Part shown: positions 1 to 36,879 of the stretch, one piece after another
Numbering within the stretch: the stretch's first letter is position 1
How the letters are laid out: each line of letters starts with the position of its first letter
Source: Ignavibacteriales bacterium
GTDB taxonomy: Bacteria > Bacteroidota > Ignavibacteria > Ignavibacteriales > Ignavibacteriaceae
DNA: 36,906 bases
Reading direction: 5' to 3'
Assembly: GCA_020061465.1 (NCBI GenBank)
Contig: JAGUYG010000005.1
Coordinates: 1 to 36,906, forward strand
Program-made: the position numbers and the translations under genes
The notes under the pieces: model-generated
What the model was told of the DNA's origin: nothing
The model's input: only the letters and a program-made list of their open reading frames with translations
The model's database searches: none

Positions 1-4
1 GCAG

Positions 5-152
5 TTCTGACAGAAATACAAATACAAAGTTAGCACTGATAATAAGTCTCTCTCTTTTTAAGAGAGAGATTAGAGAGAGTTTAAGTACCGGGAAAATTAA
101 GAGCAACAAAAAAGTTTGCTGAAAAAACAAACTTTTTTAACGTAGTAGCACT
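5..152. repeat. Left copy of a terminal inverted repeat element
   Basis: This segment matches the reverse complement of 36712-36879 from TTCTGACAGAA at its outer edge to CGTAGTAGCACT at its inner edge. The inner 110 bases match closely and the outer 45 only loosely. It contains two hairpins: TCTCTCTCTT/AAGAGAGAGA (47-56 and 60-69) and AAAAAAGTTTG/CAAACTTTTTT (about 109-138), the second flanked by T-runs and terminator-like. It carries no coding sequence. It could be a dispersed, MITE-like repeat; lying at both window edges also fits an assembly that broke at a multi-copy repeat. Confidence 0.85.
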
Positions 153-158
153 TTGTAA

Positions 159-180
159 GAACCTCCGACCCGCTTCGGAG
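159..180 (-). pseudogene. tRNA fragment: variable loop and 5' T-arm, cut in the T-loop
   Basis: Read on the minus strand this is CGAAGCGGGTCGGAGGTTC, which looks like the end of an anticodon arm, the variable loop, a T-stem GGAGG and the start of a T-loop (TTC). At the T-loop the similarity stops and the sequence runs into TTACAAAGTG and then the terminal repeat element. No 3' acceptor half is visible inside the window. It is short, so the identification rests on similarity to the two neighbouring tRNA-like segments. Confidence 0.4.
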
Positions 181-217
181 ACTTTCAAACAGACGTTTAG
201 AATTCTTTAAAATAAAA

Positions 218-243
218 ATGCGAAAGAACTTTTTCTTTCGCAT
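218..243. terminator. Strong bidirectional Rho-independent terminator
   Basis: The hairpin is a perfect 11-bp stem, ATGCGAAAGAA (218-228) and TTCTTTCGCAT (233-243), with a 4-nt loop. It is followed by CTTTTTG on the plus strand, and on the minus strand by TTTTATTTT (from the A-rich stretch at 209-217). It therefore has the form of an intrinsic terminator in both directions. It lies directly behind the minus-strand tRNA 3' fragment at 250-293. Confidence 0.75.
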
Positions 244-249
244 CTTTTT

Positions 250-293
250 GCGGGCTCGGAAGGATTTGCATGTCCCTATGGGAAACCTTCGAC
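250..293 (-). pseudogene. tRNA 3' fragment with a 15-nt palindromic insert in the T-loop
   Basis: On the minus strand the T-stem GAAGG (286-290) pairs with CCTTC (259-263), followed by the acceptor 3' strand CGAGCCC (252-258). The T-loop should be TTCAAAT. Here TT and CAAAT are separated by 15 nt at 269-283 containing the palindrome TCCC-ata-GGGA. No 5' half (acceptor 5' strand, D-arm, anticodon arm) is found upstream, so it cannot be an intact tRNA gene. The terminator at 218-243 follows immediately, as expected behind a former tRNA. Confidence 0.6.
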
Positions 294-315
294 ACAATAC
301 AATCTTAAAATAAAG

Positions 316-335
316 AGGCGAAGTAAACTTCGCCT
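316..335 (-). terminator. Terminator-like hairpin behind the tRNA-Met-like gene
   Basis: AGGCGAAG (316-323) and CTTCGCCT (328-335) form a perfect 8-bp stem with a TAAA/TTTA loop. On the minus strand it is followed by CTTTATTTTAAG, a modest T-rich tail. It begins 7 nt after the 3' end of the tRNA-like gene at 342-446, which is the usual place for a tRNA terminator. Confidence 0.6.
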
Positions 336-341
336 TACAAG

Positions 342-446
342 TAGGCTCGGAAGGACTTTCCCGAAGGGAACACTTTGTGAGAAACTCCAACCCGCTGATT
401 ATGAGTCAGCTGCTCTAACTCCGCCAGAGGAGGAAGCTACGAGCTT
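342..446 (-). pseudogene. Interrupted tRNA-Met (CAT) with insertions in D-loop and T-loop
   Basis: The minus strand carries an anticodon arm GCTGA-CTCATAA-TCAGC with anticodon CAT, typical of elongator Met or lysidine-Ile tRNA. Acceptor strands AAGCTCG (440-446) and CGAGCCT (343-349) pair in 6 of 7 positions. The total is 105 nt instead of about 77. The excess sits in the D-loop (roughly 8 nt, including CTCC/GGAG) and in the T-loop. In the T-loop about 22 nt with CACAAAGTG and TTCCCttcGGGAA separate the TT from the AGT. The T-stem pairs in only 4 of 5 positions. A normal tRNA fold looks impossible, so I treat it as a pseudogene unless the inserts are processed out. Confidence 0.6.
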
Positions 447-9750: not shown

Positions 9751-10300
9751 TTAACCCCACGATTTATCGTGGGGGTTACAGTACAGATGATTCAGGGCTT
9801 TAGCCATGATAAGAACTTTGTTATAAATTCTTCATACTCGCTTTTGAATGTCATTTTTTTATGATGCTCTTCTTGACATTTGATGTAATCCCGAACTTTA
9901 TCGAGCATTGATTCACTAACAGATACTGCAAAATACTCATCCGCCCATTCTAATTTCTGTTTTAGCAGTGAGTTCTTATTTGCCCAATATGCAGCTTCCC
10001 CTTTTATCAGTTGCATAACTTTTGCGATCGTAATATCAGCATTCAATGCTAACAAGCAATGTATGTGGTCCAAATCTCCATTAATAAAATCAATATGAAT
10101 CTGTTTCTCTTTTGCATTCTCACGGATATGCTGAAAAAGTTGTTGTCTAATATCCTTAAAGAGAACACGCTCATGGTTTTTCGTACCCCAAACTGCATGG
10201 ATCCATATTTTAACGTGTGACATAATTCATGTTGATGCAGGGCTAAAGCCCGAAGTCGTTTTTAGTATTTCCCTCCACACACTGAAGTGTGGGGTTTATG
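9751..10300 (-). mobile_element. IS200-like insertion element, about 550 bp
   Basis: A single HUH-transposase gene is bounded by subterminal hairpins, as in IS200/IS605 elements. The left hairpin is AACCCCACGAT/ATCGTGGGGGTT (9753-9777). The right one is CCACAC/GTGTGG with flanking C/G runs (about 10271-10294). GGGCTTTAGCC (9796-9806) and GGGCTAAAGCCC (about 10242-10253) form a further related pair just inside. There are no terminal inverted repeats or target duplications, which fits this class. The element separates the E1 beta gene from the DegT aminotransferase and reaches into the open frame upstream of the latter. The exact cleavage sites cannot be fixed without an empty-site comparison. 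Confidence 0.75.
9792..10223 (-). CDS. tnpA: IS200/IS605-family transposase TnpA (HUH, Y1)
   Basis: This 143-residue protein is the length of a stand-alone IS200 transposase. The metal-binding HUH motif appears as DHIHCLLAL near residue 71. The single catalytic tyrosine is probably the one in VRDYIKCQEEHHKK near 112. The fold begins with the typical VKIWIHAVWGTKNHERVL strand. Such enzymes cut and rejoin single-stranded DNA at hairpin ends. The frame looks intact, so the element could be active. A TnpB or serine-recombinase partner is absent. Confidence 0.92.
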   Translation of the reverse strand: MSHVKIWIHAVWGTKNHERVLFKDIRQQLFQHIRENAKEKQIHIDFINGDLDHIHCLLALNADITIAKVMQLIKGEAAYWANKNSLLKQKLEWADEYFAVSVSESMLDKVRDYIKCQEEHHKKMTFKSEYEEFITKFLSWLKP

Positions 10301-30038: not shown

Positions 30039-30383
30039 CTATTTTAATTTGGACTTTGAAACAATTTTACCAAGGATTTTTTTTAATTCTTCTGATTCAT
30101 TAATTAAAAAATTAGTTTCCTCTAAAGGTGCGATTTCGACTGCTTTAATCATTCTAAGCCAATAATTTGATTCACGCATTTCTTTAAGAGATATATTTAC
30201 TTTATTAATAAAATCTGCTTTTGATGAAGCGGCTTGGGATTCTTCGTAATTCGCACCGGAAGATGTAGAAGATTTTGTCAACTGATTAATAATCACCTTG
30301 TTAACTTCAGAGTATTTTATTTTCTTTAATAGCTGTAAGACTTTTACACCAAAATTGAATAGACGTAAAGCTAAATCATTCAT
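30039..30383 (-). CDS. Four-helix-bundle (S23/IVS-like) protein, copy 2
   Basis: This 114-residue helical protein contains LALRLFNFGVKVLQLL, VIINQLTKSSTSSGANYEES and SKADFINKVNISLKEMRESNYWL. These are the hallmarks of the four-helix-bundle family first known from 23S rRNA intervening sequences and related to the Avd accessory proteins of diversity-generating retroelements. Its function is unknown. ATG at 30383 is chosen. The gene is flanked by AAGTAAAAAGT-rich tracts in inverted orientation (29990-30015 and 30388-30418), giving it the appearance of an inserted cassette between gmd and fcl. It is distinct from copy 1 at 32965-33342. Confidence 0.85.
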   Translation of the reverse strand: MNDLALRLFNFGVKVLQLLKKIKYSEVNKVIINQLTKSSTSSGANYEESQAASSKADFINKVNISLKEMRESNYWLRMIKAVEIAPLEETNFLINESEELKKILGKIVSKSKLK

Positions 30384-30420
30384 CTCACTTTCCACTTTTT
30401 ACTTTCTACTTTTTACTTAC

Positions 30421-31599
30421 TCAGAACCCTCTTTTGAGAACTTTTTCAAGATCGGCTTGAACCATTATATTAATGAGTTCTTCAAATTTTACTTTGGGTT
30501 CCCAGCCGAGTTTTTGTTTTGCCTTGGATGAATCACCTATTAAGAGATCGACCTCGGTTGGTCGGTAGTAGTTGGGATCAATTGTAACAAGGGTGGTGCC
30601 CAAGTCAAAAGGTAAAAGGTTAAAGGAAAAAGTGTTCTTAAAAGAATGGTTGTATGGCTGTATTGCTGCATGAGATTGCCACGTCGCAGAGTTTATCCCG
30701 CATGCGGGGCTCATCGCTATGACAGACGGGTCTAAAGATTTGACGATTCCTATTTCGTTTTCGGCGGAGCCGGACCATTCTAATACTATACCGAGCTGGG
30801 AAAAAGTTTTTTCGCAGAATTCGCGGATAGTGTGAGTCTCACCGGTTGCAAGAACAAAATCTTCAGGTTGATCAAGCTGAAGCATTTTCCACATACCTTC
30901 ACAATACTCAGGTGCGTAACCCCAATCGCGTTTAGCATCGAGATTACCGAGTGTCAGATTTTCCTGAAGTCCAAGTAAAATTCTAACAGCGGCACGGGTA
31001 ATTTTGCGTGTAACAAATGTCTCTCCCCGACGTGGAGATTCGTGATTGAAGAGAATACCGTTTATTGCAAAAAGTTTATAAGCTTCGCGGTAATTTTTTG
31101 TAATCCAGAAACCATAAAGCTTAGCCACTCCATAAGGAGAGCGTGGGTAAAATGGAGTATTTTCATCCTGCGGTATTTGCTGTGCTTTTCCATAAAGCTC
31201 AGAGGAAGATGCTTGATAAAATTTTACTTTTTGAGTTAAACCAGTTTCTCTAATAGCATCCAGGAAGCGTAATGTACCAAGCGCATCGACTTGAGCTGTG
31301 TAGTCAGGTATTTCGAAGGATACTTTCACATGCGATTGAGCTGCGAGATTATAGATCTCGTCAGGGGCAATTTTTTCTAAAAGTCGATTAAGACTACTTG
31401 TATCTACAAGATCACCATAGTGGAGAAAAAGCGTTCTGTTTAGAACTTCAAGATTATTGTATAGATGATCGATACGCGATGTGTTAAATGAAGAACTTTT
31501 GCGAATGATACCGTGAACTTCGTAGCCTTTTTCTAAAAGTTGTTCGGTGAGATAACTACCATCTTGACCGGTAATTCCTGTAATTAATGCTTTCTTCAT
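30421..31599 (-). CDS. gmd: GDP-mannose 4,6-dehydratase with an in-frame insertion
   Basis: This 392-residue enzyme dehydrates GDP-mannose to GDP-4-keto-6-deoxymannose, upstream of Fcl. It has [15 protein letters not shown] (NADP loop), [52 protein letters not shown] (catalytic Tyr and Lys), [16 protein letters not shown] and the closing [20 protein letters not shown]. Between ENEIGI and TLVTIDP lie about 50 residues (286-335; 30595-30744) where many bacterial Gmd proteins have 10-25. The extra DNA is repeat-like rather than coding (a CCCGCATGCGGG palindrome and an ACCTTTT tract), so it probably inserted in frame. The catalytic residues are intact. AAGAG precedes the ATG. Confidence 0.92.
30595..30744. 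repeat. REP-like insertion within gmd
   Basis: On the minus strand the segment starts near TTTAGACCCGTCTGTCATAG, contains the perfect palindrome CCCGCATGCGGG, passes GCGACGTGGCAATCTCATGC and ends in CCTTTAACCTTTTACC. The middle resembles a widespread dispersed repeat of the type GTCATTGCGA...GCAATCTC, and the end resembles intergenic tracts seen elsewhere here (29990-30015, 30388-30418). Its length is a multiple of three and it has no stop in the gmd frame. Confidence 0.65.
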
Positions 31600-32964: not shown

Positions 32965-33342
32965 TCAAGGTTTAGTAATGATAGATTTTTTTATTGAGTT
33001 TATTAAACTTGATAACATTTTGCCAATCTCGCTTCCCTTCATTCTTGTACTGTCGTACTTTTCGATACTAATCCAATTTTTACGTTTAAAGATTTCAATA
33101 AGAGTGATTGTCTCGAATAATGATCCTCTCGCGTAATATAGAAATTGAATAAACTCTTTTTTCGAATATCTACCTTTTCCCTCTGCAATGTTCAGTGCAA
33201 TTGAGGTCACTGCTGATTCTAGTTGCTCTATTATTCTATAATGTTTTCTATCGGACTGCAATGTATCTATTAGATCAATAACCTCGGTACAAAATTCAAC
33301 AGCTTTTTTCCAAACGCCCAAATCCTCAAATGCGAAATGAAT
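32965..33342 (-). CDS. Four-helix-bundle (S23/IVS-like) protein, copy 1, start codon uncertain
   Basis: This roughly 125-residue helical protein has the family signatures FEDLGVWKKAVEFCTEVIDL, EQLESAVTSIALNIAEGKGR and YSKKEFIQFLYYARGSLFET. Its function is unknown. The conserved N-terminal HFAFEDL lies upstream of the only near-canonical start (TTG at 33321, with GAGG only 2 nt away). In frame before it the first plausible initiator is ATT at 33342, where relatives would have ATG. The open frame continues to about 33370 with no ATG, GTG or TTG. It may start at ATT, or may be a silent copy with a mutated start. It is divergent from copy 2. Confidence 0.75.
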   Translation of the reverse strand: MHFAFEDLGVWKKAVEFCTEVIDLIDTLQSDRKHYRIIEQLESAVTSIALNIAEGKGRYSKKEFIQFLYYARGSLFETITLIEIFKRKNWISIEKYDSTRMKGSEIGKMLSSLINSIKKSIITKP

Positions 33343-36711: not shown

Positions 36712-36879
36712 AGTGCTACTACGTTAAAAAAGTTTGTTTTTAAAGCAAACATTTTTGTTGCTCTATATACGGTACTTTTTAACTCTCTCTGCCGAAGGCA
36801 TCCCTTCGGGATAATCTCTCTCTTACAAAGAGAGAGACTTATTACTAATTATGTCTTTACATTTATAATTCTGTCAGAA
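36712..36879. repeat. Right copy of the terminal inverted repeat element, with nested palindromes
   Basis: Its reverse complement follows the left copy (5-152) from CGTAGTAGCACT (36712-36723) outward to TTCTGACAGAA (36869-36879). It carries 22 extra bases (36790-36811) made of TGCC-gaa-GGCA and TCCC-ttc-GGGA, which are absent from the left copy. The GTTTG/CAAAC and CTCTCTC/GAGAGAG hairpins are kept. Outside 36879 only unplaced AT-rich sequence remains. Confidence 0.85.

Follow-up and report, generated by a model that had tools for sequence, protein, structure and literature searches.

Degenerate tRNA-Met copies at an Ignavibacteriales contig end as probable remains of a family of tRNA-targeting homing elements

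Three short segments near the end of a contig from an Ignavibacteriales bacterium resemble pieces of tRNA, lie in a row on the minus strand and are broken by small palindromes. What these segments derive from, and what kind of process leaves such pieces behind, is the question that this locus raises. The window, by which is meant the whole stretch of DNA that was analysed, is the complete contig C67 (36,906 nucleotides) of a 4.2 Mb genome in 122 contigs. All three segments (159-446) are derived from one tRNA-Met(CAT), the intact form of which, at C15:126680 on another contig of the same genome, served as the reference (Table 1). The summed score of exact blocks between the window and this tRNA is 84, against a maximum of 28 when the tRNA was shuffled 2000 times; the runner-up among the 44 distinct tRNA sequences of the genome scores 20. 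BLAST aligns the two with 97% identity over 35 nt (E 2e-12).

Table 1. Features of the window around the tRNA-Met(CAT) copies, in window coordinates
Feature	Position	Strand	Evidence
Near full-length tRNA-Met(CAT) pseudo-copy (segment 1)	344..446	-	Exact blocks, tRNA 3-12 at 444-435, 19-48 at 419-390, 58-72 at 358-344; BLAST
15-nt palindrome-like D-loop insert, in place of tRNA 13-18	420..434	-	Gap between exact blocks
22-nt T-loop insert, two small hairpins (CACAAAGTG; TTCCCTTCGGGAA, completed by the neighbouring A)	359..380	-	Block gap and sequence
Terminator-like hairpin and T-run behind copy 1	305..335 (about)	-	GGCGAAGTTTACTTCGCC, then T-rich, read from the sequence
3' fragment of tRNA-Met, T-arm and acceptor 3' strand (segment 2)	252..293	-	tRNA 61-73 exact at 264-252
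15-nt T-loop insert TCCCATAGGGACATG	269..283	-	Sequence; related insert at C15 and C69
Terminator-like hairpin behind fragment 2	214..247	-	Inverted repeat I1, 93% complementary
Third tRNA-Met fragment (tRNA 42-57), ends in T-loop at 159 (segment 3)	159..174	-	16 nt exact, 174-159
Dispersed repeat, entered by the third fragment; copy at the opposite contig end too	1..152		Genome matches

Much of what the initial annotation read from the letters holds against this reference. The exact blocks bear out three tRNA-like segments in succession, and the second has its T-loop split just as claimed, into TT and CAAAT by 15 nt (283-269), with the T-stem GAAGG/CCTTC unbroken. The insert of about 22 nt in the Met(CAT) segment is present, the third segment does stop in the T-loop and run into the terminal repeat, terminator-like hairpins follow two of the segments (1 and 2), as claimed, and the sequences TTCTCACAAAGTG and TTCTTACAAAGTG are each found. 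A tRNA origin and the palindromic character of the inserts are likewise correct. The inventory of T-loop inserts was right as described, and it overlooked the 15-nt insert in the D-loop of the first copy.

What does not stand is the reading of these segments as tRNA genes interrupted in place, for they are degenerate partial copies, and the intact gene survives elsewhere. ARAGORN finds no tRNA in the window, and Rfam lists none for bases 1-1000 at E<=10; the sub-threshold matches to sRNA and snoRNA models in those bases were taken as chance. The intact gene on C15 scores 73.6 bits against the covariance model, and the window segments give no match. The covariance-type search that had been proposed thus returns no tRNA for the segments with their inserts, and the comparison proposed alongside it, with the intact tRNA-Met genes of the genome, yields the exact blocks of the C15 gene. 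These blocks match with the inserts still in place, contrary to the case, foreseen as a refutation, of segments that would match no tRNA even after removal of the inserts. RNA folding of the segments did not produce a complete cloverleaf; bases 130-310 fold strongly (z -3.9), in a stretch that includes a terminator hairpin.

Downstream of the whole tRNA-Met gene on C15 lie two of its own 3' pieces, both of which carry a T-loop insert and have a terminator-like hairpin. Window positions 268-396 are 94% identical to C15:126831-126959, and for positions 268-367 a counterpart with 96% identity lies close to the end of C69. The window segments are relocated or duplicated pieces of a C15-like tRNA-Met array, not genes. 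Positions 1-520 have 62 matches in the genome (self included), most of them within 1-152 and many at contig ends. This hairpin-rich dispersed repeat occupies both ends of the window (1-152 and 36712-36879) and many other contig ends of the genome, and its internal copies are longer than the stretch visible here. Elsewhere in the window, an IS200-like Y1 transposase ORF (9792-10223, minus strand; PF01797, E 2.8e-24) is presumably of the REP-associated type. A GDP-mannose dehydratase-like ORF (30421-31599, minus strand) carries what we take to be an extra in-frame stretch near the C-terminus relative to its family, in which an inverted repeat was sought and not found. Two small minus-strand ORFs (30039-30395 and 32965-33321) look, in our estimation, like four-helix-bundle (rRNA intervening sequence) proteins.

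Degenerate copies of this kind are not confined to tRNA-Met. Each of the 44 distinct tRNAs of the genome was searched against its own flanks, up to 1.5 kb per side and on the same strand only, and 18 chains of exact blocks were found at 10 of them, namely Asn, Asp, Cys, Gly(GCC), Leu(CAA), two Met, Pro(CGG), Pro(TGG) and Thr(TGT). Shuffled tRNAs gave no chain in any of 20 rounds, and the flanks of other tRNAs gave 0-2. Copies upstream of a tRNA are mostly 5' parts and those downstream mostly 3' parts, with breaks often at the D-loop, anticodon arm or T-loop. The exceptions are the copies of tRNA-Leu(CAA), which are near full-length, and one copy of the second Met, which ends short of the 3' end. 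At this tRNA-Leu(CAA) (L084, C15:88300-89000), the tRNA lies between two near full-length copies accompanied by smaller pieces, and these copies bear a long palindrome after the anticodon arm. Palindromes of the form TCCCGn(3-14)CGGGA occur 96 times in this genome and the reversed control pattern 11 times, and among the places listed only some are near tRNAs. None occurs within the window, so that the window inserts belong to the T-loop and D-loop type and not to the commonest palindrome.

The same genome holds eight matches to the GIY-YIG nuclease domain. At tRNA-Asn and tRNA-Pro(CGG), a small GIY-YIG ORF lies between the intact tRNA and its 3' copy, and a further match lies 337 bp downstream of tmRNA. 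Downstream of tRNA-Ala is a decayed GIY-YIG stretch below the family cut-off. Of the other four matches, two belong to long frames (573 and 615 aa) and two lie at the ends of contigs. At tRNA-Met, no GIY-YIG nuclease remains in the window's genome. The tmRNA itself (L103, 763-1162), which has the GIY-YIG ORF downstream, contains short palindromic stretches that resemble the T-loop inserts when read by eye.

Beyond this genome, the association is regular. The window's genome and 20 related genomes contain 132 GIY-YIG matches, 37 in frames of at least 558 aa (UvrC-like and similar) and 95 in frames shorter than 300 aa. All 95 were examined for tRNA neighbours, in two sets of 62 (60 with a protein of at least 40 aa) and 33 matches; for these genomes, the far-side-fragment counts and the tree draw on the first set. 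Within 700 bp of an ARAGORN-called tRNA or tmRNA lie 58 of the 95 (41 of the first set and 17 of the second). One of the 17 adjoins a protein of another kind, and its tRNA call is uncertain. In 58/58 the nearest tRNA or tmRNA is on the strand of the nuclease. Nucleases next to a tRNA occur in at least 17 of the 21 genomes. On the far side of the nuclease, a piece of the same tRNA was detected in 37 of 41 pairs and none in the other 4. By reading of their sequences, 22 of the 37 non-adjacent short-frame matches are other GIY-YIG subfamilies; the remaining 15 include two further units of a tRNA-Asp array and two decayed or cut matches. At one locus (L137), two tandem nuclease units lie beside a 5' tRNA-Leu-like piece and the intact tRNA is absent. 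Four nucleases (L110, L260 twice, L265) have 51-678 bp of upstream DNA to the contig end, one of the tRNA-linked type (L274) sits at the downstream end of its contig with ample upstream DNA and no tRNA, one (L275) has tRNA-Lys at 740 bp, and three others of the tRNA-linked type (L117, L125, L278) have ample flank and no tRNA in it. Another GIY-YIG subfamily occurs away from tRNAs (L102, L111, L140). In the window's genome, L102 lies at one contig end and a truncated match resembling it in sequence (L105) at another, which suggests a second dispersed element.

Some of these loci are tandem arrays. In one relative (G001), five 315-bp units stand behind tRNA-Asp, each consisting of a terminator, a nuclease gene and a 3' tRNA piece that carries TCCCGACTAGTCGGGA in its T-arm, the last piece being shortened. 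In the same genome, three 316-bp units precede tRNA-Ser(TGA), each with a 5' piece bearing a palindromic D-loop insert and a nuclease gene. The locus most pertinent to the window is that of G007, at the same type of tRNA-Met. There a nuclease gene with a far-side fragment lies 39 nt downstream of the tRNA, and upstream are six tandem 5' tRNA-Met units of ~74 bp, in which the palindrome TCCCGA-nnCA-TCGGGA replaces the anticodon arm and which have no nuclease. Pieces of tRNA-Met without a nuclease are thus an observed state beside the element, and the window would represent another such state. From this likeness we infer that the window segments originated from such an element.

A wider survey gives a similar picture. 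An alignment of five nucleases of the tRNA-adjacent type was used to scan the genomes of 84,980 species and found 338 relatives, of which the 80 listed were analysed; at least four of the five queries are tRNA-linked, and the sample is therefore biased toward likeness to them. Among the 80 are Ignavibacteria, Cloacimonadota, Marinimicrobia, Balneolaceae, several Bacteroidota orders, Chlorobiota and the candidate phyla radiation. Carriers in culture include Marinigracilibium pacificum KN852 (L212), Terrimonas pollutisoli H1YJ31 (L194) and Psychroserpens luteolus XSD401 (L210). A tRNA lies within 3 kb at 67 of the 80 listed loci, the nearest being on the same strand in 67/67, and within 300 bp at 58, with the nuclease downstream in 45 and upstream in 13. 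Ten of the 13 listed loci without a tRNA have at most 260 bp of upstream DNA, and three (L178, L229, L235) have ample upstream DNA and no tRNA in it. For listed pairs less than 600 bp apart, a far-side fragment was detected in 57/65 and not in 8/65, at a threshold that shuffled tRNAs pass in 0.5% of cases. A perfect stem of at least 6 bp occurs in 48 of 59 inserts of this named set, compared with 2.3% of shuffles.

A complete element is ~300 bp in length. It comprises a gene for a GIY-YIG protein of ~80 aa between the intact tRNA or tmRNA and a partial copy in direct orientation, this copy being a 3' part when on the 3' side and a 5' part when on the 5' side. Pooling of the 65 named loci with 29 from the relatives, one nuclease per locus, gave 94 pairs, and in 86 of these a piece of the paired tRNA lies on the other side of the nuclease. 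Fragments on the 3' side reach exactly the last base of the tRNA in 52 of 72 cases; those on the 5' side begin at base 1 in 12 of 14, and five of them end by position 30. When the 20 nt that follow the intact tRNA are compared with the 20 nt that follow the fragment, identity is at least 70% in 19 of 43 comparable pairs, against 0.17% of mixed pairs, so that the end of the tRNA was often copied along with the flank beyond it. Nuclease-less arrays are also found, with six units at one tRNA-Met and two each at tRNA-Asn and tRNA-Gly.

An insert of at least 8 nt is present in 73 of the 86 fragments, and none was detected in 13. The stretch of the fragment that is replaced or split usually holds a palindrome, often TCCCGA-n-TCGGGA. 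The anticodon arm is the site at 46 loci, the T-arm or T-loop at 29, the D-loop at 5 and elsewhere or spanning sites at 7, some loci having two. Among inserts in the anticodon arm, 28 of 46 hold TCCCG together with CGGGA, as do 16 of the 30 in the T-arm. The replaced position depends on the target, being mostly 50-59 in tRNA-Asp and about 27-45 in most other tRNAs. The proposal that the T-loop is a preferred entry point thus survives in part, in that insertion there is recurrent; the anticodon arm is the commoner site and the D-loop is also used.

PF01541 (GIY-YIG) is found in all five nucleases that were scanned, and Y5, Y16, G18, R26, H30 and E62, which we take to be catalytic-type residues, are invariant in 17 that were aligned. 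The nucleases are single-domain proteins, nearest in the PDB to UPF0213 (1zg2, E 1.2e-15) and SLX1 (E 4.9e-9), and NCBIfam offers no name for the five beyond one weak UvrC match. In a tree of 113 proteins (99 with a target label; 86 columns, with many weak forks, and near-copies that aid clustering), the target tRNA changes 32 times compared to a shuffled mean of 73.3, none of 200 shuffles being as low. A mainly tRNA-Asp group (support 89, not starred) unites Cloacimonadota, Marinimicrobia and Ignavibacteria. On the same tree, 21 changes of insert class compare with 28.8 in 100 shuffles (minimum 24), and 10 changes of nuclease side with 15.1 (minimum 12), both characters being confounded with tRNA type. 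In the 13 of 21 nuclease pairs that were unsaturated, dN/dS is 0.08-0.46, and the nuclease is under purifying selection.

Occupied and unoccupied sites are seen at a conserved Tyr-Gly-Thr-Trp tRNA cluster, for which 14 genomes were searched and 13 clusters read. In 11 relatives the Gly-Thr spacer measures 9-78 nt; the two relatives with a nuclease and a fragment there have spacers of 334 and 425 nt, giving two filled and 11 empty spacers. One of the "empty" spacers (G019) contains, as read by eye, a tRNA-like 5' piece with TCCCGCTAAAGCGGGA that is likely a remnant of an element. No group I or II intron surrounds the nuclease at the 12 carrier loci searched with Rfam at gathering score, which returned only tRNA and tmRNA. 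One nuclease query gave no plasmid or phage match at E<=1e-5, and a scan of viral contigs for the nuclease gave two weak hits.

The best reading of the loci with a nuclease beside a tRNA is that they constitute a chromosomal family of tRNA-targeting homing elements. The three window segments would then be nuclease-less remains of such an element, to which a probability of about 0.74 can be given, and the initial observation is one end of something larger, probably the remains of this family. Weighing against this reading are the nucleases of the tRNA-linked type that have ample upstream DNA and no tRNA (four in the relatives and three among the 80 listed loci), the pairs in which no far-side fragment was detected, the fragments in which no insert was, and the lack of a nuclease at tRNA-Met in the window's genome. 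In such a cycle, the nuclease would cut an uninvaded copy of its own tRNA gene, and repair from an invaded copy through tRNA homology on both sides would bring in the nuclease gene while leaving one intact tRNA. Nearly every pair offers what break-repair homing requires, namely tRNA homology in direct orientation on either side of the nuclease gene. The palindrome, situated where the copy lacks its natural arm, may destroy the cut site, such that the nuclease gene is not excised again. Repeated cutting with self-templated repair, or unequal exchange, could yield the tandem arrays, and loss of the nuclease would leave arrays of pseudo-tRNA pieces like those of the window. A candidate means of protecting the carrier, an altered intact target, which not every enzyme of this class needs, is not supported at tRNA-Asp. 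In three carriers (L159, L120, L133) the intact tRNA-Asp agrees over 75 nt with the nuclease-free tRNA-Asp of the window's genome. As this tRNA can be identical with and without the element, simple self-immunity by sequence fails, and the carrier would be expected to stay open to cutting unless this is weak or repressed.

The elements might instead act at the level of RNA, the nuclease or another factor acting on the tRNA itself and the palindrome-bearing copy serving as an expressed decoy or antidote. Such a role would suit the frequent exchange of the anticodon-arm hairpin for a hairpin of similar size, and the retention of nuclease-less arrays of up to six units. A GIY-YIG domain fused to a tRNA methylase-like domain, described in the accessible part of a published analysis (PMC1564403), also lends it some credit. 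Against it, the 3'-side and 5'-side fragments have no core in common, being mostly anchored at the last and first bases of the tRNA, as counted above, with otherwise widely variable boundaries. Moreover, the relatives in the PDB are UPF0213 and SLX1, and SLX1 is by its PDB name a structure-specific endonuclease. SLX1 acts on DNA. An RNA-level module is accordingly unlikely.

A second alternative holds that independent mobile palindromes insert into the hairpin loops of redundant tRNA copies, and that the linkage to a nuclease is secondary. The dispersal of TCCCG-CGGGA in the genome would be expected of such palindromes, several T-loop inserts consist of two tandem small hairpins when read by eye, and the palindromic stretches within the tmRNA of the window's genome may be counted with them. 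However, the same-tRNA fragment across the nuclease in 86 of 94 pairs would be left unexplained, as would the dependence of position on the target tRNA, and this alternative seems quite improbable. The attachment-site scars that ordinary integrative elements with a tyrosine integrase leave in tRNA genes, a known source of partial tRNA genes (PMC9897764, in the text accessible), are a very improbable origin, since the units read are ~300 bp with a single GIY-YIG ORF and no integrase gene, 5' fragments occur too, and palindromes within the copies are not predicted.

The nearest known system to these putative homing elements is that of SegB, a protein larger than the ~80-aa nucleases described here, and the likeness lies in a GIY-YIG nuclease gene next to tRNA genes. 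SegB of phages T4 and T6 is a free-standing GIY-YIG homing endonuclease adjoining tRNA genes (PMC13096335), reported to cut in the tRNA region and to drive tandem amplification of a tRNA-segB segment (PMC13096335; PMC2988022). Its homologues are reported to lie often close to tRNAs in phages and to be present in phages of several phyla, including Bacteroidota, and free-standing enzymes are noted typically to cut the donor allele inefficiently (PMC13096335, published in 2026). Unlike SegB, the present elements are chromosomal, encode proteins of ~80 aa closest in the PDB to UPF0213 and SLX1, and combine nuclease lineages tied to their target tRNAs with a palindrome-disrupted partial copy and nuclease-less arrays. 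Proteins of the UPF0213/SLX1 type are the sequence family to which these nucleases belong; of 23 loci in the same genomes that were assigned, by reading of their sequences, to different short-frame GIY-YIG subfamilies, 22 lack a tRNA in the flank examined and one has an uncertain call at 533 bp. Partial tRNA genes in prokaryotic genomes also arise from integrated genetic elements (PMC9897764, in part), a resemblance that ends with units of ~300 bp without integrase, palindromes in place of arms, and fragments of both the 5' and 3' ends.

Short palindromes inserted into genes are likewise familiar from the Rickettsia palindromic elements; unlike these, the present palindromes lie in tRNA pseudo-copies beside a nuclease, and the functional tRNA is clean. 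In the accessible part of a 2006 survey of the GIY-YIG superfamily, tRNA appears in the text on a methylase fusion and in two references, none of it concerning gene linkage (PMC1564403). No paper in the searched literature treats GIY-YIG together with tRNA genes and Bacteroidetes, or UPF0213 together with GIY-YIG, and no description of the chromosomal element was recognised, by titles and the starts of abstracts, in that literature, which leaves most subscription journals outside. The proposed family of tRNA-homing elements is to that extent undescribed.

A broader proposal, possible though at clearly less than even odds, is that these elements represent a cell-encoded class of tRNA homing spread over several phyla, in which SLX1-like, perhaps DNA-structure-directed nucleases recognise the cruciform-forming arms of tRNA genes and the palindromes, together with nuclease-less units multiplied in trans into arrays. 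If the nuclease does read hairpins in DNA, this would be a novel mode of finding a homing site. The element shows how a selfish entity can reside at essential genes without breaking them, and it accounts for the pieces of tRNA and the tandem repeats that trouble annotation and assembly. Many small stand-alone GIY-YIG proteins, common in these genomes, gain an identity and a testable target in a tRNA gene, and together they provide a set of natural nucleases with differing candidate tRNA-gene targets.
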